Positions 35,969 to 46,516 of a DNA stretch of 64,000 nucleotides are shown in pieces. Position numbers and translations under genes: made by a program. The stretch comes from Prevotella ihumii (GTDB taxonomy: Bacteria; Bacteroidota; Bacteroidia; Bacteroidales; Bacteroidaceae), in assembly GCF_900155655.1 (NCBI RefSeq), contig NZ_LT706987.1:2773588-2837587 (forward strand), written 5' to 3'. The notes below the pieces were generated by a model that ran no database searches, was not told the DNA's origin, and saw nothing but the letters and a program-made list of their open reading frames with translations. Numbering within the stretch: the stretch's first letter is position 1; every line of letters begins with the position of its first letter.

Positions 35969-36161
35969 GGCTGGTTCTATAAATTACCACCGCATATAGT
36001 CATTAAATTTTTATGAAATACGTTTTGTTATCTTTTGGCTTCTTTTGGGTTCAAAATGTAAGTTCGTTCAGTCGTGTAGCTCGCTACACTCCTTCACGCT
36101 CTTGCATTTTGACCTCAAAAATAAGCTCAAAATCTAACAAAGCTAATTTATAGAATCAGCC
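35969..36161. mobile_element. MITE-like element, copy 2 (193 bp)
   Basis: It has the same 18-bp inverted ends as the copy at 1566, with one mismatch in the right end, and is flanked by TATA on both sides. It lacks an internal segment of copy 1 but keeps the CAGTCGTGTAGCTCGC region. It sits just behind the clpC terminator. Confidence 0.85.
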
Positions 36162-36268
36162 TATATAGAATAGAAAGAGAAGAACTCTTATTTTGTTTCT
36201 TTCATTTAAGAATGTTCTATTTTTCTTTTTCCCATCTTTTGAGAGCCATACATCTATCTTTGAAAAGC

Positions 36269-36329
36269 AAAACATATATGTTTGGCAATGCCAAAGTTGA
36301 ACTTTGAGACGGTGAAACATATATGTATT
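36269..36329. repeat. Palindrome cassette, copy 3
   Basis: The order is AAACATATATGTTT, CAAAGTTGAACTTTG, then a single AAACATATATGT. A CATCTATCTTT segment lies before it, as in copies 4 and 5. The rest of the spacer 36162-36475 has no gene. Confidence 0.8.
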
Positions 36330-36475
36330 GGAATGTGTAGATAACAACCTTGTTATCAGCAAGATACAGTTTTGTCTTTGAAAATAGATGTCTTGCTTCG
36401 CTTTGTTCTATTTTTCCTTGTTCACTTGTTTCGTTATTAGCGAAAAATAGATAAAAATAGCTTAGCAAAGCTGTG

Positions 36476-37018
36476 TTATTCTTCGCCTTCTTCAGCGTGT
36501 GTATAAAGAATTACGCTTGTAGCACCAATAGTAAAGAGTGTTCCGTGCTCAATAACACGTTGCTCTGTATCGCCAAGAATTTGATTATCTACAAACGTTC
36601 CTGTGTACGAAGGTCCGTCTTTCAATACATATTTTAGGTTACCCTTCTTATCCTTCGATACCGTGATAGAGCAGTGTGTCATATCCACACTTGGGTCTAC
36701 CGTTTCTATTGGACAATTGATAGGGTTACCCTTTTGGTATCTTCCGATGGTATTTACACCCCAATGAAGCGGAATAATTTGCTTGTAGTGGAAACAGTTT
36801 TCTATTACGTGTATTGCTCCGTATTCAGTTTCTTCGTCCTGATTTTCAGGTGTTTCGGCTGCCTCCTTTTGTGTTTTGTGCAGTTTTGACACACCTATTC
36901 TAATGCCAAACTGCTTGCTACAATTGGGACATTCGAATACTAAACGTTGACCTGACTGATATTTCTTTTCATCAAAGGTGATGAAATTATCGCATTTTGG
37001 GCATCTTACTCGCTTCAT
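36476..37018 (-). CDS. FHA-domain protein with N-terminal zinc ribbon
   Basis: This 180-residue cytoplasmic protein has an N-terminal zinc ribbon with two Cys pairs (CPKCDNFITFDEKKYQSG then CPNCSKQFG, MJ0042-like) and a forkhead-associated domain at about 75-170, with the core motif around NTIGRYQKGNPINCP and HCSITVSKD. FHA domains bind phosphothreonine, and the zinc ribbon may bind a partner or nucleic acid. It lies 6 bp downstream of the HU/SPOR gene and is likely co-transcribed with it. No kinase gene is nearby, so the phosphorylated partner is unknown. Confidence 0.85.
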   Translation of the reverse strand: MKRVRCPKCDNFITFDEKKYQSGQRLVFECPNCSKQFGIRIGVSKLHKTQKEAAETPENQDEETEYGAIHVIENCFHYKQIIPLHWGVNTIGRYQKGNPINCPIETVDPSVDMTHCSITVSKDKKGNLKYVLKDGPSYTGTFVDNQILGDTEQRVIEHGTLFTIGATSVILYTHAEEGEE

Positions 37019-37024
37019 AAAATC

Positions 37025-38008
37025 TTATTTTCCTATTTCTAACACCCAAGCCTGCTTAAAGTTGGCGTTGCTTCTTAGTGTGTTCAAGTGGTCAACAGCC
37101 TTTTGTGCTGTTGCATATTCTCCGTACAAAACCTTTGTGCTGCTTGAGCCAACATAGACGTGTGCTTTGGTAAAACCATTCTTTTGTAGTTGCTTTACAA
37201 AGGCGTTGGCATTGTTGGTAGTGACGTGACTTGCCAATACTATTGTCCAATAGTGCTTGCTTTTTGCCTCTGTTTTGTTGCTCACCTTTTGTACAGGGGT
37301 AGGGTGGAATGCAGTGTTGCTGTCCGAAACTTCGCTCGAATCAAACAAGTTGGCAAACATTCCGCTTTTTACGGTTTGGTCATTCAGCCCGTGTTGGGTC
37401 TGCGAAGCAAAGCCAGCAATAAATATAAAGGCAATGATGGCAGCAGCTACCGATACTTCTTTAATGGCTTTTAGGCTCACACTTAGTCGCTTTTCGCCTT
37501 GCTTATTGGTATCTATGCTTATTATTTTGGCTTTTGTTGGCTCTTCTTCTATTGTGGTTTCAACAATAGCGACAGGTTCTTCTGCCTTTGTAATAGTAGC
37601 TATTTCGTAGCTATTCAGGGCATAGAACTGTGGTGTAAGTAAGCCTCCTTCGTATGGTTCGAAAAGTATTTTGCTGCTATCGGTCTTGGTCAAACGCCCA
37701 AGTCCATTAAGCTCGATACTTCCTTCCTCGTCCAATACTTTATTAATATGGTCTACTTCATCTTCTATCCTTTGCATTGCTTCGGGATAGCTTACATCAT
37801 AGGCCTCAATATAACTTTGCGCTAAGAGCGAATCGTTCAATCTTAGTACAGGGTTAAATCCAATGGTGCGAAATGGGGGGAGGAACAAACGGTCGGATAT
37901 ATCGTAGCGTGCCTCCGCAAAATGTGCAACGAAGCCGCCTAAACCAGGAACAATGACACAGTCATTTTCCAACAAAAGAATTTCGATATGTCGATCGATA
38001 TTTATCAT
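37025..38008 (-). CDS. HU-CCDC81-type/SPOR domain membrane protein
   Basis: From Met 38008 (MINIDRHIEILLLENDCVIVPG) the product is 327 residues. Residues 1-130 carry the HU/CCDC81-like fold (PGLGGFVAHFAEARYDISDRLFLPP, EEGSIELNGLGRL). A single membrane helix follows at about residue 190 (VSVAAAIIAFIFIAGFAS), and the C-terminus is a SPOR domain (HYWTIVLASHVTTNNANAFVKQL). SPOR domains bind denuded glycan strands at the septum, and the N-terminal domain would face the cytoplasm. An upstream Met at 38074 is rejected, as the added residues do not fit. The layout matches the HU-LysM protein at 51443. Confidence 0.85.
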   Translation of the reverse strand: MINIDRHIEILLLENDCVIVPGLGGFVAHFAEARYDISDRLFLPPFRTIGFNPVLRLNDSLLAQSYIEAYDVSYPEAMQRIEDEVDHINKVLDEEGSIELNGLGRLTKTDSSKILFEPYEGGLLTPQFYALNSYEIATITKAEEPVAIVETTIEEEPTKAKIISIDTNKQGEKRLSVSLKAIKEVSVAAAIIAFIFIAGFASQTQHGLNDQTVKSGMFANLFDSSEVSDSNTAFHPTPVQKVSNKTEAKSKHYWTIVLASHVTTNNANAFVKQLQKNGFTKAHVYVGSSSTKVLYGEYATAQKAVDHLNTLRSNANFKQAWVLEIGK

Positions 38009-38129
38009 CGTGTGCAAATTTAGACAAATTTCGGTAAAGTGCCAAACCATTTTTCTTAAAAGTATGCTAAGCATTAGAAATAGTTATCATTCCTTTTTTA
38101 TTCAAATTATATTTAATATCTTTGCCATA

Positions 38130-38297
38130 ATGATGGAATTTTGTGTATCAATAATTGGATATGGAAAATTCTCTCTTTGCCAAAAGAATAGTGCCAGAGA
38201 AACTTTTGGTGTTACACTTGAAAGTGACAAAAATCAACGAGAAAAGGTATATGATTTATCATATTTATTAGACGAAGCCTTGGAGAAAATGATTTAA
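38130..38297 (+). CDS. Possible small protein of unknown function
   Basis: This 55-residue frame (MMEFCVSIIGYGKF start) is not recognised. It is only 10 bp from a TATCTTTG promoter box (38117-38124), so it would be almost leaderless. It may be chance. Confidence 0.2.
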   Translation: MMEFCVSIIGYGKFSLCQKNSARETFGVTLESDKNQREKVYDLSYLLDEALEKMI

Positions 38298-38302
38298 TAT
38301 AT

Positions 38303-38376
38303 TACCTTTGCATAAGATAGACTGCACTCGGCAATTTACAAGTAAGTTTGTATTGCGCTCGTTTACGCTATCTTTG
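38303..38376 (+). promoter_or_regulatory. Double promoter-like region with inverted repeat upstream of rfbC
   Basis: Two TAnnTTTG boxes, TACCTTTG at 38303-38310 and TATCTTTG at 38369-38376, bracket an imperfect inverted repeat whose arms begin AGATAGACTGCACTCGG and end TTGCGCTCGTTTACGCTATC. The second box leads to rfbC. Confidence 0.45.
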
Positions 38377-38482
38377 CATTAAAAGAATTGAACTTTAATA
38401 CTTTAGATGTTAACATATTCTATTTATATTAAGGTTCGCAAGATTGCAATTTTTTAAATATTAGAATAAAAGACATATAGAT

Positions 38483-39034
38483 ATGGAATATAAGAAGACT
38501 GAAATAGACGGTGTTTGGATTATCGAACCAAAGGTGTTTAGCGATGCACGTGGCTACTTTTATGAAGCGTGGAAGCAAGCAGAGTTTGACGAGAATATTG
38601 GCTATCACGTAGACTTTATTCAAGACAATGAATCTAAATCAAGCTATGGTGTGTTGCGTGGCTTGCACTATCAGAAGGGTGAATTCTCGCAAGCTAAACT
38701 TGTGCGTGTATTGCGTGGAAAGGTGCTTGATGTAGCTGTTGACTTGCGCAAGGATTCGCCTACATTGGGCAAGTATGTAGCTGCGGAATTGTCTGACGAA
38801 AACAAACGCCAATTCTTTATCCCTCGTGGTTTTGCTCACGGCTTTTTGGTGTTGAGCGACGAAGCAGTGTTTACTTATAAGGTAGACAATGTGTATGCGC
38901 CACAAAGCGAAGCAAGTATCAAGTGGAATGATGAGACCATTGGCATTGATTGGGGAATGAATGAAGGCGATGTATTGCTTTCGGAGAAGGACTTGACCAA
39001 GGCTTTGGCGTGGAAAGATGCCGACCTTTTCTAA
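38483..39034 (+). CDS. rfbC: dTDP-4-dehydrorhamnose 3,5-epimerase
   Basis: This enzyme epimerises dTDP-4-keto-6-deoxyglucose at C3 and C5, the third step to dTDP-rhamnose for surface polysaccharides. The 183-residue protein has the catalytic His in GVLRGLHYQK and the Tyr in FTYKVDNVYAP, with the EPKVFSDARGYFYEAWK N-terminus of the RfbC family. The other three rfb genes are not beside it in this window. The gene is alone, with a promoter candidate upstream. Confidence 0.95.
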   Translation: MEYKKTEIDGVWIIEPKVFSDARGYFYEAWKQAEFDENIGYHVDFIQDNESKSSYGVLRGLHYQKGEFSQAKLVRVLRGKVLDVAVDLRKDSPTLGKYVAAELSDENKRQFFIPRGFAHGFLVLSDEAVFTYKVDNVYAPQSEASIKWNDETIGIDWGMNEGDVLLSEKDLTKALAWKDADLF

Positions 39035-39136
39035 GCTATCAGTTGATAATAAAAGATGCAAACATTAAGCATAGAATAAACGTTGTTATATCTCTATGTT
39101 GTATTTCTTTAATATTGATAGTGTAAAATGCATATT

Positions 39137-39925
39137 ATGAATAGATTAGGAATATGCTTTCTGTTGCTTATGGTGTTATTTATGGGGTGCAAGAATGTAT
39201 CTCCCAATGCCGATAACCCTGACGAAGACCCTAAAGCTAAGGAGCTATTGCAAGGAATATGGGTAAGTGATGATGGCGGAACACCTGCTATTTGGGCTAA
39301 AGGTGACAGCATCTATTATCCAGATTCTGCAAGTATGCCCGTGCGTTTTTGGATTTATAAGGACTCGTTGTACCTAAAAGGAAACAATATAAATAGCTAT
39401 AAGATAACCAAACAAGCTGAGCATCTGTTCAAATTTGTGAATAAAAACGGTGAGGAAGTTAAACTTGTAAAGAGCAATAACAGAGACTTGTTGCCCTCAT
39501 TTATGTATCAAGTGTATGCAATGAATACCTTCCTTACAGCGCAAAGCGACACCATTGTGAAAACAACGATGGGCTTTTTTGAAAGCAAGGTAAATATTGC
39601 AACCACATCAGATAGAGTTGTAAAATCATCATACAATGATAATGGGGTAGAGGTAGACAATACCTACCTTGATAATGTGGCACATTTGGCTATCTCAAAC
39701 CACGGCTCACTCGTTTATGCGCACGACTTCCGCAAGCAAGAGTTTGCAGCCCTCATAGATAAAACATTGATGGCAAAGAGCATATTGCGCAAGTTCGAGT
39801 TCACCCACTGCGATGACAAAGCACTCTATTATGATGCTGTGATAGGTGTTCCCGACGCTTCTACGGCATACGTGGTGGAGGTAAGAATTACGACCGATGG
39901 AAAGGTAACACAGCGAATGCGCTAA
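39137..39925 (+). CDS. DUF4738-like lipoprotein
   Basis: This 262-residue lipoprotein has a signal peptide ending VLFMGC, the lipidated Cys following. The mature part has the pattern ELLQGIWVSDDGGTPAIWAKGDSIYYPDS, typical of a family of Bacteroidetes lipoproteins that I take to be DUF4738; I am not certain of the number. Function is unknown. An in-frame ATG lies three codons upstream (39128). It is followed by trpC after 19 bp, so it may be in the same transcript. Confidence 0.75.
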   Translation: MNRLGICFLLLMVLFMGCKNVSPNADNPDEDPKAKELLQGIWVSDDGGTPAIWAKGDSIYYPDSASMPVRFWIYKDSLYLKGNNINSYKITKQAEHLFKFVNKNGEEVKLVKSNNRDLLPSFMYQVYAMNTFLTAQSDTIVKTTMGFFESKVNIATTSDRVVKSSYNDNGVEVDNTYLDNVAHLAISNHGSLVYAHDFRKQEFAALIDKTLMAKSILRKFEFTHCDDKALYYDAVIGVPDASTAYVVEVRITTDGKVTQRMR

Positions 39926-39944
39926 AACCTAACGAGAAAACTAT

Positions 39945-40745
39945 ATGCGTGATATATTAGAAGAGATAGTTGCAAACAAGCAAGCCGAACTTGAGCTTTG
40001 GAAACAATACATTCCAATGAAGCGATTGTATGCCCTTTTGGAAAGCAAAGGCAGTTTTGACACACAAACACCATCAATGAAAGCGGCATTAATGCAAAGC
40101 AATTCGGGCATTATAGCTGAATTTGTGAGGAAACAACCAGGCAAAGAATGGATAAATAAGGCTGCTAAACCGCGTGATATAGCTTTAGCTTTTGAAGCCA
40201 ATGGCGCAACAGGCATAAGTTTTCCTACCGACTTTAAGTACTTTGGAGGGTATGATGAATATATCCAAGAAGCACGTGCAGCCCACGTAACCTTACCTAT
40301 TCTTTATCGCAACTATATCATTGACGACTATCAACTCTTTCAAGCAAAGCACGCAGGTGCATCGGCTGTAACGCTCAATGCGGCGTTATTACCCATTGAG
40401 GTGTGCCAATCGTTTACATCGCTTTGTGCCCAACTCCATCTTGAAATAGTGTTAGAAATTCACGATGAGAGCGAATTAGAGTACCTAAATTGCAACCCTG
40501 ATATGTGTTTGGTAAACAATCGCAAGTTTGCAACCTTGGAAATGGATACTAACATTTCGCTGCAATTGGCTGAAAAATTACCAACCGACTTGTTAACGAT
40601 AAGCGCAGGGGGCATTACAGATGCAGCAATAGCAAACCAATTGCGCAGTGTGGGGTATCAAGGTTGCATTGTAGACACCTACTTAATGGAAAGTGAGGAG
40701 GTTGGAACTGCATTGCAACAGCTTCTAACACAGATAAATAATTAG
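39945..40745 (+). CDS. TrpC-like protein with altered active site
   Basis: The 266 residues align along their length with indole-3-glycerol phosphate synthase: MRDILEEIVANKQAE, IIAEF, TDFKYFGGY, NYIIDDYQLFQAKHAGASAV, VLEIHDESELEYL, NNRKF. Key residues of the family differ. After IIAEF the usual KRxSPSKG is VRKQPGKE, so the catalytic Lys and Ser are lost. The RKDF motif is YRNY, the SESGI of strand 7 is SAGGI, and the IGE segment is VDT. Only the Glu residues of AEF and LEIH and the Asn of NNR remain. It is probably not an active TrpC. It sits directly before the TrpF-like gene (21-bp gap) and may have a new role. Confidence 0.8.
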   Translation: MRDILEEIVANKQAELELWKQYIPMKRLYALLESKGSFDTQTPSMKAALMQSNSGIIAEFVRKQPGKEWINKAAKPRDIALAFEANGATGISFPTDFKYFGGYDEYIQEARAAHVTLPILYRNYIIDDYQLFQAKHAGASAVTLNAALLPIEVCQSFTSLCAQLHLEIVLEIHDESELEYLNCNPDMCLVNNRKFATLEMDTNISLQLAEKLPTDLLTISAGGITDAAIANQLRSVGYQGCIVDTYLMESEEVGTALQQLLTQINN

Positions 40746-40766
40746 ACAAACATCAATCTTTAGAAT

Positions 40767-41429
40767 ATGATAACCAAAGCATATATCTGCCACACACAGA
40801 ATATAGACAAGGCAAAAGCACTAAACTTGAATTGTGTAAGTTTAGATTTCAGAAGCAAAAGTCCATATTACGTGCGTCAAATTTCCTCTCAAGCAGGCAT
40901 TATCCCTAATTATGGAAGTGTGGAAGCTGCCCAAGGAAAGATAAAAGGGTATGTTGCGAACGAAGCAAACCAATCTATCGCCTTTTGCGGCGTGTTTGCT
41001 GACGATATGCCACAAACGATAGTTACCCGTATTGTGAACTTTGGACTCAATATGGTGCAGCTTAATGGGGGCGAATCGCCAGTTATGATTAATAATTTGC
41101 GCAATACCGTAGACCCTGACATTCACCCTAACATCAAGATTGTTAAGACTTTACATATTCAGACCAAAACTGACATTGATGCGTATAAGGTTTTTGAAGG
41201 CGTGGCAGACTATATCTTATTTGATATAAGTGCGTGGGAAAACGTTGATTTACAGCAATTTGAAGATTATAAAGGTACAACTCCTTTTCTTATTGGAGGC
41301 ATCAATGAAGCCAATATAGCAGCTGTTTGTGCCATAAAAAATCCAAACTTTACAGGCATAAGCATCAATAAAGCCATTGACAAGGACGACGATAATACGC
41401 TTGAAACCTTATTAAAGGTTGGTCAATAA
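40767..41429 (+). CDS. TrpF-like protein with altered active site
   Basis: The 220 residues resemble phosphoribosylanthranilate isomerase: AYICHTQ (KICGxT in the family), KSPYYV (KSPRY), CGVFADD, MVQLNGGES (QLHG), YILFDIS (LLD), PFLIGGINEANI. The general acid Cys and general base Asp are kept, but the phosphate-binding Arg of SPRY is Tyr, the QLHG His is Asn, and the C-terminal DxSSGVE motif is ISINKAID. Activity as PRA isomerase is doubtful. The changes run in parallel with those of the TrpC-like neighbour. A conserved shared role is an inference. Confidence 0.78.
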   Translation: MITKAYICHTQNIDKAKALNLNCVSLDFRSKSPYYVRQISSQAGIIPNYGSVEAAQGKIKGYVANEANQSIAFCGVFADDMPQTIVTRIVNFGLNMVQLNGGESPVMINNLRNTVDPDIHPNIKIVKTLHIQTKTDIDAYKVFEGVADYILFDISAWENVDLQQFEDYKGTTPFLIGGINEANIAAVCAIKNPNFTGISINKAIDKDDDNTLETLLKVGQ

Positions 41430-41450
41430 TAGGTGGTGACGCTATAAAAT

Positions 41451-42032
41451 ATGGATATGGAGAAAACAACTTGTGCCATTATCGACAATTACGATTCGTT
41501 CACTTACAATCTTGTGCACCTTGTTCGCGAGATAGGAGTAGAAGTGAGCGTATTCAAAAACGATGCGTTGGATATAGACGAGTTGCAGCATTACGACAAA
41601 ATCATTTTGAGTCCAGGCCCTGGGATACCATCAGAGGCAGGCAAATTATTGACAGTTATTCAGCATTATGCAGGTAAAAAGCCCATTCTTGGTGTATGTT
41701 TAGGCCATCAAGCCATTGCAGAAGTTTATGGTGGAACGATAGAAAACCTTTTGCAAGTCTACCACGGAGCGCAAACAAAGGTAGTGCAAACCCACGTTTC
41801 GCCTATTTTTGATGGTTTAGACCACGAGTTTCTTGTAGGCAGATACCACAGTTGGATAGTATCAAAAGCCAATTTTCCCACTTGTTTAGAGGTTATTGCA
41901 GAAAGTAGCGATGGACAAATTATGGCCTTTCGTCATAAGCAGTACAACGTATATGGCATACAGTTTCACCCCGAAAGTATATTGACGCCAAGTGGGAAAA
42001 CTATTTTGACCAATTGGTTAACAAGGTCTTAA
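41451..42032 (+). CDS. Glutamine amidotransferase, TrpG/PabA type
   Basis: This class I glutamine amidotransferase subunit would supply ammonia from glutamine to an anthranilate or aminodeoxychorismate synthase. The 193 residues have all expected motifs: IDNYDSFTYNLVH, SPGPGIP, the nucleophile Cys in GVCLGHQAI, and the His and Glu of FHPES. Its partner (TrpE or PabB) is not in the window, so its pathway cannot be decided. It lies 21 bp after the TrpF-like gene. Confidence 0.9.
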   Translation: MDMEKTTCAIIDNYDSFTYNLVHLVREIGVEVSVFKNDALDIDELQHYDKIILSPGPGIPSEAGKLLTVIQHYAGKKPILGVCLGHQAIAEVYGGTIENLLQVYHGAQTKVVQTHVSPIFDGLDHEFLVGRYHSWIVSKANFPTCLEVIAESSDGQIMAFRHKQYNVYGIQFHPESILTPSGKTILTNWLTRS

Positions 42033-42090
42033 ATTCTTAGTTTTCTCTATTTACACCCCTTTCATTTAAGTAAAAAGTATAATCAGCGAG

Positions 42091-42666
42091 ATGATGAACG
42101 AGCAGCAAAGCAAATATATTGATGAAATAGTTGACGATGGCAAGCCTTGGTTTGCTATTCGGTTGTTCACACTCAAGTTAGACGAAGTTACAAACTACTT
42201 TAGAAGCAAGGGATTAGAGGTATTTACACCAATGCATTATGTAGACGAAGAGGACGCACGAGGTAGAGTTCACCGCTATCTTCGCCCAGTGGTTCGCAAC
42301 TTTCTATTTGTGAAACAGACGATAGAGGTTGCCAAATTTAAGCGCATTGTGTACGAAGCTAACCACAAAATAGCCGTTTATACCAAGTCGAAGGAAAACA
42401 AAGAGTACTATCTTATCCCTTCTAAAGAGATGTACGAATTTCGTATTATGTGCAATCCTGACATCTCTATCCGCAAATACATCACTCCCGAAGAAGCAGC
42501 AATAAAACCTGGCGACCTTGTTTGTGTAAAGTTTGGCCCATTAAAAGGCATAACAGGGCGATTGGTACGTTCGAGCAAAAAGTACTATTTGCTCAAAGAA
42601 ATCCCGGGCGTCAGTGTGATGTTGAAAGTTACAAGATGGTGTTGCGAGCCATTAGATACAAATTGA
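42091..42666 (+). CDS. UpxY/NusG-like transcription antiterminator
   Basis: This 191-residue protein has a NusG N-terminal domain (WFAIRLFTLKLDEVTNYFRSKG, VVRNFLFVKQT) and a C-terminal KOW domain (IKPGDLVCVKFGPLKGITGRLV). It resembles the UpxY regulators of Bacteroides capsule loci, which prevent premature stop of transcription. Here it is not followed by polysaccharide genes; serB follows. The target operon is unknown. The start could be the first or second Met. Confidence 0.85.
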   Translation: MMNEQQSKYIDEIVDDGKPWFAIRLFTLKLDEVTNYFRSKGLEVFTPMHYVDEEDARGRVHRYLRPVVRNFLFVKQTIEVAKFKRIVYEANHKIAVYTKSKENKEYYLIPSKEMYEFRIMCNPDISIRKYITPEEAAIKPGDLVCVKFGPLKGITGRLVRSSKKYYLLKEIPGVSVMLKVTRWCCEPLDTN

Positions 42667-42740
42667 TTACAATCATATAAAAAAACGATTAAGCACTAAA
42701 GTATTCGTCTGCATTTATTGTCAGTTTCACAATAAATGCT

Positions 42741-42748
42741 TACTTTTG
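42741..42748 (+). promoter_or_regulatory. Candidate -7 promoter box of serB
   Basis: TACTTTTG ends about 20 bp before the serB start chosen at 42770. A start at 42758 would fall almost on the transcription start, so the later ATG is preferred. Confidence 0.45.
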
Positions 42749-42769
42749 CATAACTAAATGATAAAAGTT

Positions 42770-44017
42770 ATGAATGAAACTAATGTAATTCAAGAAGAAC
42801 AGATTTTAATTCGTGTAACGGGACAAGACCGCCCTGGACTTACCGCCGAAATAATGTGCATCTTGGCAGAGTATGATGCACATGTGCTTGACATTGGTCA
42901 GGCAGATATTCACGCCACATTGTCGTTGGGTATATTGATTAGAACCACCGAAAACAACTCTGGAAGGGTAATGAAGGCCTTGCTCTTTAAGGCAACAGAA
43001 CTTGGTGTAAATATAGGTTTCTCGCCCGTAACCGATGACGAATACGAAGAGTGGGTGAGCCAACAAGGCAAAAACAGATACATTCTCACCATTATAGGAC
43101 GTCAACTATCGGCAGCAAACATCAAGGCTACCACGCAAGCCATTGCGAAGCACGGAATGAATATTGACACAATAACCCGTCTTACAGGTCGTCAGAGCAT
43201 CAAGACACAGACCGAAAGCGTACGTGCTTGCATAGAATTTTCGCTCCGTGGCACACCTAAGAACTATGACCAGATGCAAGCCGACTTGATGCAGATGAGC
43301 CAAGAACAAGACATAGATTTCTCTTTGCAAAAGGATAATATGTACCGTAGAATGAGAAGACTTATCTGTTTTGATATGGACTCTACACTCATTCAAACCG
43401 AGTGTATAGACGAATTGGCAAAGAAAGCTGGAGTTGGCGAGCAGGTAGCCGAAATCACTGAACGTGCGATGCGTGGCGAACTCGACTTCAAGGAAAGCTT
43501 TAAGGAACGTGTAGCCTTGTTGAAGGGTCTTGATGTGGGTGTGATGGAAGAGATAGCACAAAACCTTCCAATTACAGAAGGTGTAGACCGACTGATGGGC
43601 GTACTGAAAAACTGTGGTTATAAGATAGCTATTCTTAGTGGTGGATTTACCTACTTCGGAGAATACCTCCAACGCAAATACGGCATAGACTATGTGTATG
43701 CCAACGAATTGGAAATAGACGAAAACAATAAGCTCACAGGTAGATACCTTGGCGATGTGGTAGACGGGAAGCGAAAGGCAGAACTCTTGAAACTCATCGC
43801 ACAGGTAGAGAAAGTAAACCTCGCGCAAACCATTGCTGTGGGCGATGGTGCTAACGACTTGCCAATGATTTCTGAAGCGGGTTTGGGTATTGCTTTCCAC
43901 GCTAAGCCACGAGTTCGTGAAACTGCCGAACAAAACCTCACCAAAATGGGACTCGATGGTGTGCTCTACTTCCTTGGCTTTAAGGACAGCTATTTGGGTG
44001 AAGCTGGAAAGTTTTAG
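42770..44017 (+). CDS. serB: Phosphoserine phosphatase with ACT domains
   Basis: This enzyme converts phosphoserine to serine, the last step of serine synthesis. The 415 residues have two N-terminal ACT-like domains (residues about 8-90 and 100-180) that may bind amino acids for control, then a HAD phosphatase: DMDSTLIQTECIDELAKKAG with the two Asp, ILSGGFTYF, and the GDGANDLPM motif. The arrangement matches the long Bacteroidetes/actinobacterial SerB form. It is followed by a terminator. Confidence 0.96.
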   Translation: MNETNVIQEEQILIRVTGQDRPGLTAEIMCILAEYDAHVLDIGQADIHATLSLGILIRTTENNSGRVMKALLFKATELGVNIGFSPVTDDEYEEWVSQQGKNRYILTIIGRQLSAANIKATTQAIAKHGMNIDTITRLTGRQSIKTQTESVRACIEFSLRGTPKNYDQMQADLMQMSQEQDIDFSLQKDNMYRRMRRLICFDMDSTLIQTECIDELAKKAGVGEQVAEITERAMRGELDFKESFKERVALLKGLDVGVMEEIAQNLPITEGVDRLMGVLKNCGYKIAILSGGFTYFGEYLQRKYGIDYVYANELEIDENNKLTGRYLGDVVDGKRKAELLKLIAQVEKVNLAQTIAVGDGANDLPMISEAGLGIAFHAKPRVRETAEQNLTKMGLDGVLYFLGFKDSYLGEAGKF

Positions 44018-44050
44018 ACCCAATTAGTAAATAGAACGAAGTAGAAAAAT

Positions 44051-44089
44051 GCTATGTTTATGTACAAGACAATTGTATATAAACATAGC
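44051..44089. terminator. Terminator after serB
   Basis: The arms GCTATGTTTAT and ATAAACATAGC form a stem followed by a T-run. Confidence 0.75.
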
Positions 44090-44165
44090 TTTTTTGTATC
44101 TAAATAATTGTTCTATTTTTCCTCACGCCATCTTTTCACTCCAATACATCTATCTTTAAAATACA

Positions 44166-44249
44166 AAACATATATGTTTGGGAATGTCAAAGTTGAACTT
44201 TGGGAGGGTCAAACATATATGTTTTAAGCGGTCAAACATATATGTTTTA
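44166..44249. repeat. Palindrome cassette, copy 4
   Basis: The order is AAACATATATGTTT, CAAAGTTGAACTTTG, then two AAACATATATGTTTT palindromes 23 bp apart centre to centre. The leader TTGTTCTATTTTTCC and CATCTATCTTT lies before it. It fills the spacer after serB. Confidence 0.85.
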
Positions 44250-44287
44250 GGTGGCATCTATAAATTCTTAATAATCAATAAATTACA

Positions 44288-44324
44288 AATGCGCTTTTAA
44301 GGTTTTAGACTTAAAAGCGCATTG
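44288..44324. terminator. Hairpin after the cyclophilin gene
   Basis: The arms AATGCGCTTTTAAG and CTTAAAAGCGCATT form a 14-bp stem; it lies downstream of the minus-strand cyclophilin gene. Confidence 0.65.
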
Positions 44325-44405
44325 TTCTGTTTTTCGGTATATGGAGCGTCTGCTGTTGTACCTTTTGGGTGGTATTTCTAACCTTTCTCCGTATTGTGAT
44401 GAACG

Positions 44406-45089
44406 TTATTTCACAACCGTTGCTTTGCGTATTCTGATGTCAGTCAGTGGGCGATCGTTCTCATCCCCAACTGCCTGTTGTATCTTTTCTACAATGTCAA
44501 GCCCCTCTATTACCTCGCCAAATACGGTGTACGAGCCATCAAGATGTGGCGTTCCGCCTAAGGTTTTGTACACTTCTTTTATTTCGGGTGTAAGTTTTAC
44601 AGTTCCGTTTGTATGTTTGTCGATACGCTCTTGCGCCCAATCCAACTGACCATCAGAGAACTTTTGTCCCCACACAATGTAGAATTGAGTAGACGATGAC
44701 GCACGTTGCGGATTTACATCATCGCCCTCGCGCGCTGCTGCTAATGCCCCTCGCTTGTGAAAAAGTTTAGGGAAACAGATTTCGGCAGGTATGGTGTAAG
44801 GCTCTGGTGTGTCGCCAAGCATTTGTCCTGCTTGTGCTGTTTTAGACGCTTGGTCGCCTGCCTGAACCATAAAGTTCTTGATAACACGATGGAACAACAC
44901 ACCATCGTATGCCCCATTCTTGGTTTGTTTTAAGAAGTTGTCTCGGTGTTTTGGGGTTTCGTTGTAGAGCACCAAACGTATGTTGCCACTATCGGTTTCC
45001 ATCAAAATTTCGTGACGTAGAGTATCTGTTTGTGCGTGCATTGCAAGGGCAAATACCGCTAAAACGAGGGTTGTGAATAGTTTTTTCAT
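44406..45089 (-). CDS. Exported cyclophilin-type peptidyl-prolyl isomerase
   Basis: This enzyme speeds the cis-trans change of prolyl bonds in exported proteins. The 227 residues have a signal peptide (MKKLFTTLVLAVFALAMHAQ) and a cyclophilin domain with the motifs FHRVIKNFMVQAGD and SSSTQFYIVWG, though the usual MAN segment after the first motif is replaced (GALAAAREGDDVNPQ). It lies in the periplasm. It is monocistronic and divergent from sdaA. Confidence 0.92.
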   Translation of the reverse strand: MKKLFTTLVLAVFALAMHAQTDTLRHEILMETDSGNIRLVLYNETPKHRDNFLKQTKNGAYDGVLFHRVIKNFMVQAGDQASKTAQAGQMLGDTPEPYTIPAEICFPKLFHKRGALAAAREGDDVNPQRASSSTQFYIVWGQKFSDGQLDWAQERIDKHTNGTVKLTPEIKEVYKTLGGTPHLDGSYTVFGEVIEGLDIVEKIQQAVGDENDRPLTDIRIRKATVVK

Positions 45090-45227
45090 TGTTTATGTTT
45101 TGATTATTTCAAATAATGATATGTGCAAACTTACTTATTTTTTTTGATTTCAGCAAAATATTTGCTTTATTATCCATAATGCGTGATGATAGTGGGCGAG
45201 AAGTGATGGTTAGCCGAATAATTTTAT

Positions 45228-45235
45228 TACTTTTG
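45228..45235 (+). promoter_or_regulatory. Candidate -7 promoter box of sdaA
   Basis: TACTTTTG matches TAnnTTTG, 73 bp upstream of the sdaA start. Confidence 0.4.
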
Positions 45236-45307
45236 CATATTAATAATATATAAGGTGGCGTAACTTCTACCTCAAGTAACGAATTAAGAATTGGATACAG
45301 AGACATA

Positions 45308-46516
45308 ATGAACTCATTAAAAGAAATATTTAGGATCGGGAAAGGTCCATCGAGTAGCCATACGATGGGGCCTCAGCGTGCTGCGGAGATATTTGCAGGT
45401 CGCCATCCTGAGGCTGCTGCCTTTGAAGTAACGCTTTATGGCAGTTTGGCAGCAACGGGCAAGGGTCACTTAACCGATGTGGCTATCATTGAGGTATTGA
45501 ACAAGATTGCCCCAATCGAAATCGTTTGGAAACCTACTGAAGTATTGCCTTACCATACTAACGGTATGTTGTACAAGTCGCTCAATGCAGCTAACGAAGT
45601 TACCGATGAGTGGGAGGTGTACAGCGTTGGCGGTGGTGCATTGTCGGAAGGCAAAGGCAAGGAAGATATGTTCTATACCGAACCTGTATATGAACTAAAT
45701 ACGCTGAAAGAAATACAGAAGTGGTGCGAGGCAAGCGGTCGTGGCTACTGGGAATACGTGGAACACTGCGAGGGCGAAGAGATATGGGACTACCTTAGCG
45801 AGGTGTGGCAAACGATGCGAACAGCGGTGGAAGAAGGGTTGGATAATGCAGGGGTACTCCCTGGCAGTTTGAACCTATCGAGAAAGGCAAGCAACTACTA
45901 CATTAAGGCACGTGCTTATAAGGAATCGTTACAGGCACGTGGGTTGGTTTATGCCTACGCTTTGGCAGTGAGCGAACAAAATGCTTCGGGCGGCACTATC
46001 GTAACAGCCCCCACTTGTGGGTCGTGCGGTGTTGTGCCTGCCGTATTGTATCAGCTGGCTAAGAGTCCTGACTTTACTGAGCGCAAAATATTGCGTTCGT
46101 TGGCAACGGCAGGTCTTTTTGGCAATGTAGTGAAACATAATGCCTCTATTTCGGGCGCTGAAGTAGGCTGTCAAGGCGAAGTGGGGGTGGCTTGTGCTAT
46201 GGCTTCGGCTGCTGCTTGTCAACTTTTTGGTGGCACACCTTCGCAGATAGAGTATGCTGCCGAAATGGGGTTGGAACATCACTTGGGAATGACTTGCGAC
46301 CCTGTGTGTGGTTTAGTTCAGATACCTTGCATTGAGCGCAATGCTTTTGCAGCTTGCCGAGCTTTAGATGCCCAACTATATGCTAACTTCAGCGATGGTC
46401 GCCATCGTGTATCGTTCGATAGGGTAGTGGAAGTAATGAAGCAAACGGGACACGATATTCCTTCGCTTTACAAGGAAACGAGCGAAGGCGGATTGGCACA
46501 AGATTTTGAATGGTAA
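45308..46516 (+). CDS. sdaA: L-serine dehydratase (L-serine ammonia-lyase)
   Basis: This oxygen-sensitive 4Fe-4S enzyme turns serine into pyruvate and ammonia. The 402 residues begin with the beta domain (FRIGKGPSSSHTMGPQRAA), and the alpha domain carries the cluster Cys residues in APTCGSCGVVPA, in MTCDPVCGLVQIPCIERNA, and downstream. The single-chain form joins both domains. It lies near serB and in the opposite sense of flow, one making and one degrading serine. A terminator follows. Confidence 0.95.
   Translation: MNSLKEIFRIGKGPSSSHTMGPQRAAEIFAGRHPEAAAFEVTLYGSLAATGKGHLTDVAIIEVLNKIAPIEIVWKPTEVLPYHTNGMLYKSLNAANEVTDEWEVYSVGGGALSEGKGKEDMFYTEPVYELNTLKEIQKWCEASGRGYWEYVEHCEGEEIWDYLSEVWQTMRTAVEEGLDNAGVLPGSLNLSRKASNYYIKARAYKESLQARGLVYAYALAVSEQNASGGTIVTAPTCGSCGVVPAVLYQLAKSPDFTERKILRSLATAGLFGNVVKHNASISGAEVGCQGEVGVACAMASAAACQLFGGTPSQIEYAAEMGLEHHLGMTCDPVCGLVQIPCIERNAFAACRALDAQLYANFSDGRHRVSFDRVVEVMKQTGHDIPSLYKETSEGGLAQDFEW

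Follow-up and report, generated by a model that had tools for sequence, protein, structure and literature searches.

The locus examined here raises the question of why a bacterium should keep genes for two tryptophan-synthesis enzymes that have lost their active-site residues. It lies within the window, the 64,000-nucleotide stretch of Prevotella ihumii DNA that was analysed, in a genome of 3.3 Mb in 19 contigs that is 99.95% complete and whose named relatives, as judged by TrpF, are Prevotella species. Four plus-strand genes occupy 39945-42666, encoding TrpC-like, TrpF-like, TrpG/PabA-type and UpxY proteins and separated by gaps of 21, 21 and 58 bases. The features of the locus are as follows.

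39945..40745, + strand: TrpC-like (IGPS-fold) pseudoenzyme, 266 aa (open frame, Pfam IGPS, motif alignment)
40767..41429, + strand: TrpF-like pseudoenzyme, 220 aa (open frame, Pfam PRAI, motif alignment, AlphaFold/Foldseek)
40878..40913, + strand: side face segment 1 of the TrpF-like protein, residues 38-49 QISSQAGIIPNY, modelled beta-hairpin (modest confidence)
41001..41051, + strand: side face segment 2, residues 79-95 DDMPQTIVTRIVNFGLN, helix 3 region
41082..41123, + strand: side face segment 3, residues 106-119 VMINNLRNTVDPDI, helix 4 region
41451..42032, + strand: TrpG/PabA-type glutamine amidotransferase with intact active-site motifs, best read as PabA
42091..42666, + strand: UpxY-type NusG-like antiterminator (NusG paralog)
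42711..42739, + strand: terminator-like hairpin 3' of UpxY, a consensus match only

Both the TrpC-like and the TrpF-like frames were confirmed to be open from end to end, and a C-F pair with altered TrpC active sites was found in seven related genomes; an assembly or frame error was thereby ruled out. The unit is flanked by genes for RmlC and a DUF4738 protein upstream and SerB downstream. An RNA leader was also sought and ruled out, as no Rfam family matched within 36000-46000. Terminator-like hairpins in the region were equally frequent by chance: four were found, and shuffled sequences gave a mean of 3.5.

The two proteins retain their fold families, as the preliminary description had proposed from the letters alone. 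The TrpC-like protein matched Pfam IGPS over its full length (142 bits), with at best 56% identity to TrpCs of the genus, and the TrpF-like protein matched Pfam PRAI at 29.8 bits against a cut-off of 22.7. None of the NCBIfam TrpC and TrpF equivalogs listed reached its cut-off in a search run on the window proteins only. In the TrpC-like protein, the KRxSPSKG motif has lost its first Lys, its Ser residues and its last Gly, RKDF its Lys, SESGI its ES and IGE its GE. The changes are K53V, S56Q, S58G, G60E, K110R, E210A, S211G and GE to DT, so that none of K53, K110, E210, S211 or the G and E of IGE is kept; we take the numbering and the catalytic roles of the residues to be those of the known enzymes. 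The TrpF-like protein has lost the Cys of KVCG, the Arg of SPRY, the His of LHG, and the Asp and Ser of the phosphate-side motif. The motif readings given earlier agreed with the alignment for both TrpC (VRKQPGKE, YRNY, SAGGI, VDT) and TrpF (SPYY, QLNG, ISINKAID), with two amendments: the Cys loss, where KVCG aligns with TKAY, had been missed, and in YRNY only the change of K to R is a loss, the Y being no loss since the form in the genus is commonly YKNF.

Pathway-bearing relatives provided 98 TrpCs (23 from other genera of the family) and 94 TrpFs (22 from other genera). Another trp gene was present in the locus for 97/98 and 93/94, respectively, and the single TrpC and single TrpF without one both came from genomes with TrpA. 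A filter on active-site residues removed no rows from the TrpF set. TrpC residues K53, S56, S58, G60, K110, E210, S211 and the G and E of IGE were each found in 98/98, and TrpF K, C, R, H, D199, N201 and S202 each in 94/94; at position 153, the Asp was D or E in 92/94. Free variation of these residues among proven active enzymes of the same clade was to count against the preliminary description; in pathway-bearing relatives, to judge by the aligned sequences (98/98 and 94/94), there is no such variation.

A genome-wide search identified a single match each to IGPS and PRAI, which are the TrpC-like and TrpF-like genes themselves, and found neither TrpA nor TrpD. No TrpE was found in the genome either, the two chorismate-binding matches being an isochorismate synthase and PabB (NF005486, 455 bits against a cut-off of 275). 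A second, normal set of trp genes, for which a search had been advised, is thus ruled out, and the absence of trpE, trpD and trpA first noticed in the window holds genome-wide. The amidotransferase that follows the pair at 41451-42032 is intact as described, with its GVCLGH and FHPES motifs, and scored 187 bits with TIGR00566 (cut-off 121). Because PabB is present and TrpE was not found, the best reading of the window TrpG is as PabA, the amidotransferase that works with PabB.

We further studied how widely the genes are retained in the genus. Among 398 sampled genomes, 175 had at least 90% completeness and at most 5% contamination; TrpF was present in 166 of these, TrpC in 123 and TrpA in 118, three of the last (G428, G479, G539) falling below the family cut-off and leaving 115. 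At least 51 of the 60 trpA-less genomes with at least 90% completeness carried TrpF, and eight of that completeness were identified with TrpC (G000, G216, G217, G274, G283, G506, G531, G577). In an 80-genome sample, the 42 complete genomes gave TrpD in 25, TrpA in 25, TrpF in 37 and TrpC in 29. TrpF was compared in 43 genomes without the pathway (trp-less) that were at least 90% complete, out of at least 51 with TrpF; by hand comparison of the TrpF and TrpA listings, 19 trp-less TrpF genomes of any completeness lay outside the fetched loci.

An rpoB tree of 66 genomes (76 requested, ten without an rpoB match) contained 13 maximal trp-less clades, 12 of which are spanned by the 43 examined TrpFs. 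All sampled members kept TrpF in 11 clades, part of them did in one (G425 with TrpF; G204, G264 and G277 without), and none in one (G218), which indicates that the TrpF function is dispensable at times. Several trp-less clades were placed next to pathway-bearing relatives with good support (for example G260/G559 with G227/G243, G271 with G258, and G345/G216/G495 with G150, each at 100), and about seven separations of trp-less clades had support of at least 83. Since some nodes between trp-less clades fell below 50, 13 losses is an upper count and about seven is safer. In the TrpF gene tree, trp-less copies were scattered among pathway-bearing ones, many of them in two large groups, and the window TrpF was grouped with Prevotella TrpFs. 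A search of 45 trp-less genomes at the TIGR00566 cut-off gave no TrpG/PabA match in 20, of which 15 have TrpF and four do not, the remaining one being G371, in which TrpG is split. The 15 TrpF-bearing genomes without a match over the cut-off rule out a dependence of TrpF on TrpG. TrpC, TrpD, TrpA and TrpG are not required for TrpF retention. In G371, the TrpG adjoining TrpF (L245) consists of two overlapping frames and is possibly a broken gene.

The gene order around TrpF points to the origin of the unit. In G122, G150 and G164, the operon D-C-F-A-B-E, with G after E where seen, adjoins SigE and Rpe (the two are inverted in G164), and PrfC lies 3' of the operon in G122 and G269. Among the six pathway-bearing loci that are wide enough to show ample flanking sequence (L126, L146-L150), this Rpe/SigE arrangement occurred in three; the remaining three (G108, G005, G075) have the order B-E-G-D-C-F-A, and Rpe was not seen. 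Fifty trp-less loci were annotated by BLASTP against the window and operon proteins. In 30/50, Rpe directly preceded the unit and was encoded on the other strand; TrpG was present in 25/50 and TrpC in 8/50; one of these eight, G578, has an intact TrpC in a genome that is 81% complete. The remaining C, F and G genes keep the order and strand of the D-C-F-A-B-E-G operon, which in trp-less relatives has often been cut down at its original site to C-F-G, F-G or just F, and C-F-G adjacency, for which a search of related genomes had been proposed, was found in six relatives. The preliminary description had missed two points: the C-F-G unit is what remains of a trp operon, and the pattern recurs throughout the genus. 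Because the window flanks differ, the reading of shrinkage in place rests on the window's relatives. PrfC, a frequent right neighbour of the locus in relatives, sits at about 16.6 kb in the window, about 24 kb upstream of TrpF, which indicates that the locus has been rearranged there.

UpxY was found within about 3 kb of TrpF in 32/50 trp-less loci (28 on the same strand, four on the opposite) and was not found near TrpF in the other 18; beside the operon it was found neither in the six wide pathway-bearing loci (L126, L146-L150) nor in L119. This incomplete adjacency (32/50, and none of the six) rules out UpxY as a proven partner. G420 and G528, in which TrpA is present, carry a second TrpF flanked by Rpe and UpxY, so the UpxY link stays as a lead.

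Several other arrangements were observed around TrpF. Two loci, L234 and L236 (G562, G178), have the order ThyA-FolA-TrpF-TrpG on the same strand as a folate-type operon, with ThyA and FolA assigned by eye. In L107, from a genome (G212) with neither TrpA nor TrpD, TrpB comes directly after TrpF, possibly for indole salvage. A small protein that is thioesterase-like by eye is encoded between trpA and trpB in G122 (L148, 1485-1892 from the TrpF start), and another lies between TrpF and UpxY in G262 (L141, 3721-4119). Two loci, L118 (G258) and L119 (G269), carry a trp operon plus a second TrpF with a degraded active site.

Codon substitution ratios, which the preliminary description had recommended, showed purifying selection in the relatives' TrpF and TrpC-like genes. 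For TrpF, dN/dS was 0.08-0.22 in 13 of 17 trp-less or second-copy pairs, the other four being saturated, and 0.03-0.23 in seven pathway-bearing pairs. For the TrpC-like genes, it was 0.07-0.10 in four of five pairs and the fifth was saturated; these pairs all come from one clade (G283, G217, G531, G577) with the window outside it, the window's nearest TrpC being only 56% identical. In the same four genomes, similar values were obtained for TrpG (0.07-0.08, three unsaturated pairs) and UpxY (0.08-0.15), and TrpF gave 0.17-0.23. These ratios of the relatives indicate protein-level selection and bear out the earlier claim that the open frames are not in simple decay; the TrpC-like relatives are under purifying selection, strong where tested, in one clade.

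We then asked which parts of TrpF are held. Pathway-bearing TrpFs proved to be of two kinds, with and without conserved residues in 38-49, 79-95 and 106-119: 50 sequences with this face, all from this genus, and 44 without, of which 22 are from the genus and 22 from other genera. Columns were classed from the 94 pathway-bearing TrpFs alone, which avoids circularity, into 49 core columns (conserved in both kinds) and 26 face columns (first kind only). In the 43 trp-less TrpFs, a comparison that left out trp-less loci from genomes below 90% completeness and five named species (L032-L036), the mean entropy of the core columns rose from 0.09 to 0.86 and that of the face columns went from 0.76 to 0.78. 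The column permutation gave p = 1e-4 for this swap, in a test that treats columns as independent and ignores kinship. The constraint is swapped: the enzyme core loosens and a non-catalytic side face is held. The window TrpF retains 4/14 core residues and 17/18 face residues, the lowest face score among the 43 trp-less TrpFs is 14/18, and in G258 the operon TrpF scores 4/18 and the second TrpF 16/18; the 18-residue score was picked after seeing the trp-less set, and only the entropy column classing is free of that. Within the face, dS was higher than that of the whole gene in six and lower in seven of 13 unsaturated TrpF pairs. This lack of bias gives no sign of DNA-level constraint, and such constraint on the face, including an overlapping gene, was ruled out.

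TrpF of known structure has helix 2 in the region where the face begins in our models. The window TrpF and a P. jejuni protein were modelled with AlphaFold (mean pLDDT 73.9 and 83.7, respectively); both models contain a beta-hairpin at about 38-48, a disordered insert, strand 3, and helices 3 and 4, and the best Foldseek match for the window model was 1lbm (TrpF; E 2e-10). The models suggest, with modest confidence, that the hairpin replaces helix 2, and the order of the modelled elements would place the face on one side of the barrel. Pathway-bearing TrpFs without this face number 44, 22 of them from the same genus, so the enzyme can work without it.

TrpC accompanies TrpF in fewer lineages. 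In the nine trp-less TrpCs, which include G216 (a separate rpoB lineage) and P. amnii, counted without a TrpA search, the second Ser of SESGI is Gly in 9/9 (S211G) and in the 98 pathway-bearing TrpCs it is always Ser. Moreover, all nine have the same residue at L28, Y103, E105, Q108 and E109, positions that vary among the 98. As changes shared by nine sequences from few lineages, these are suggestive only. Most likely, the TrpC-like protein is a non-catalytic companion of the TrpF-like protein in the few lineages that retain it.

The best reading of these results is that TrpF has a second, non-enzymatic function here, probably protein binding. The trp operon would have shrunk to leave C-F-G as a remnant, and the loss of trpD, trpA and trpE would, to judge from the absent genes, have made tryptophan synthesis from chorismate impossible. 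TrpG may then have stayed as PabA for folate, together with PabB. TrpF would have stayed owing to a prior second function in this Prevotella branch that did not need the active site and that may be carried by the side of the barrel formed by the modelled beta-hairpin and helices 3 and 4, the face being most likely a docking surface for another protein. After pathway loss, catalytic and phosphate-side residues would have decayed and the face stayed fixed; the TrpC-like protein most likely became a non-catalytic companion in what we infer to be a TrpC-TrpF partnership. We regard this account of the locus, namely an operon remnant with TrpG as PabA, TrpF kept through a face function free of the active site and TrpC-like as companion, as reasonably probable. 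To the broader proposal of a two-function TrpF in one branch of Prevotella, whose non-enzymatic job was kept through about seven to 13 pathway losses and was joined by a TrpC pseudoenzyme, possibly as an UpxY-tied regulatory pair, we incline only slightly.

Four other explanations were weighed. The genes might be passive remnants of a recent pathway loss, with C and F merely not yet gone: the active-site residues decay differently in each genome, as expected for released constraint, and His is still found in 7/43 trp-less TrpFs. However, the TrpF matches listed have no internal stops, TrpF dN/dS is 0.08-0.22, F survives where D and A are gone, and the face does not drift, all of which make this explanation distinctly improbable. 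The trp-less TrpF might instead bind or act on another small molecule through its kept Cys and Arg. Cys is retained in 39, Arg in 37 and Lys in 40 of the 43, so ligand binding may persist in most of them, though not in the window, and PriA in Actinomycetaceae, retained where the Trp and His pathways were lost, is reported to shift specificity (PMC5404923). The phosphate-side groups, however, are mostly gone, with His kept in 7, S202 in 9 and the second G of GGI in 14 of the 43, and the window protein is without Cys, Arg and also Lys, yet retains the face. We consider this quite unlikely.

The preliminary description had favoured a repurposed or regulatory role, possibly in a complex with the amidotransferase. 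Selection, the sole TrpC and TrpF copies and the absence of TrpA, TrpD and TrpE favour repurposing; the complex is not supported as a general reason for it, given the 15 genomes that keep TrpF with no TrpG/PabA match over the cut-off. That the pair are subunits or regulators of the TrpG-type enzyme would fit the side-by-side position of C, F and G both in the window and in six relatives, and the folate setting of ThyA-FolA-TrpF-TrpG in G562 and G178 (ThyA and FolA by eye), but 20 of the 45 trp-less genomes lack TrpG/PabA over the cut-off and 15 of these keep TrpF, G371 aside. An obligatory complex is not supported, one confined to C-F-G lineages is possible, and as an explanation of the pair we consider it very improbable. 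The face might also serve for homodimer contact or be required for folding in this subfamily, with the kept function elsewhere on the protein. Indeed, 50 pathway-bearing TrpFs from the genus have it, but 44 other pathway-bearing TrpFs do without it, 22 from the same genus, and we consider this unlikely.

Set against known systems, the window TrpF-like protein shares with TrpF/PRAI (T. maritima 1lbm/1nsj) the barrel fold, a Pfam PRAI match over the cut-off, and the Prevotella TrpF locus and gene-tree group; it differs in lacking the catalytic Cys, Arg and His and the phosphate-side residues, in a modelled hairpin and disordered insert before strand 3, and in a genome without TrpA, TrpD and TrpE. 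The TrpC-like protein matches TrpC/IGPS over its full length, at no more than 56% identity to genus TrpCs, but is without the catalytic Lys pair and the phosphate-side residues and lies below the listed NCBIfam TrpC cut-offs. PriA of Actinomycetaceae is likewise reported (PMC5404923) to be a barrel isomerase kept and altered once the Trp and His pathways were gone, with relaxed purifying selection taking it from a dual to a single activity; the window-type TrpF, in contrast to PriA as portrayed there, loses catalytic residues and holds a non-catalytic face. The eudicot TSB-like protein is reported (PMC12727527) to be a TrpB paralog that acts on TrpA, and is also a pseudoenzyme derived from the Trp pathway that still has a role through a partner; here, unlike in that portrayal, TrpF and TrpC are concerned, mostly not as extra copies and in genomes without TrpA. 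Among the open papers listed in searches of PubMed Central, none dealt with a Prevotella pseudoenzyme derived from TrpF or TrpC.

If the favoured reading is true, a textbook enzyme has a hidden second function that was exposed by separate losses of the first in several lineages. The trp-less TrpFs would then serve as natural separation-of-function variants for finding the partner. In Prevotella, moreover, a trpF or trpC annotation does not equal tryptophan synthesis, which bears on predictions of tryptophan producers in the microbiome.
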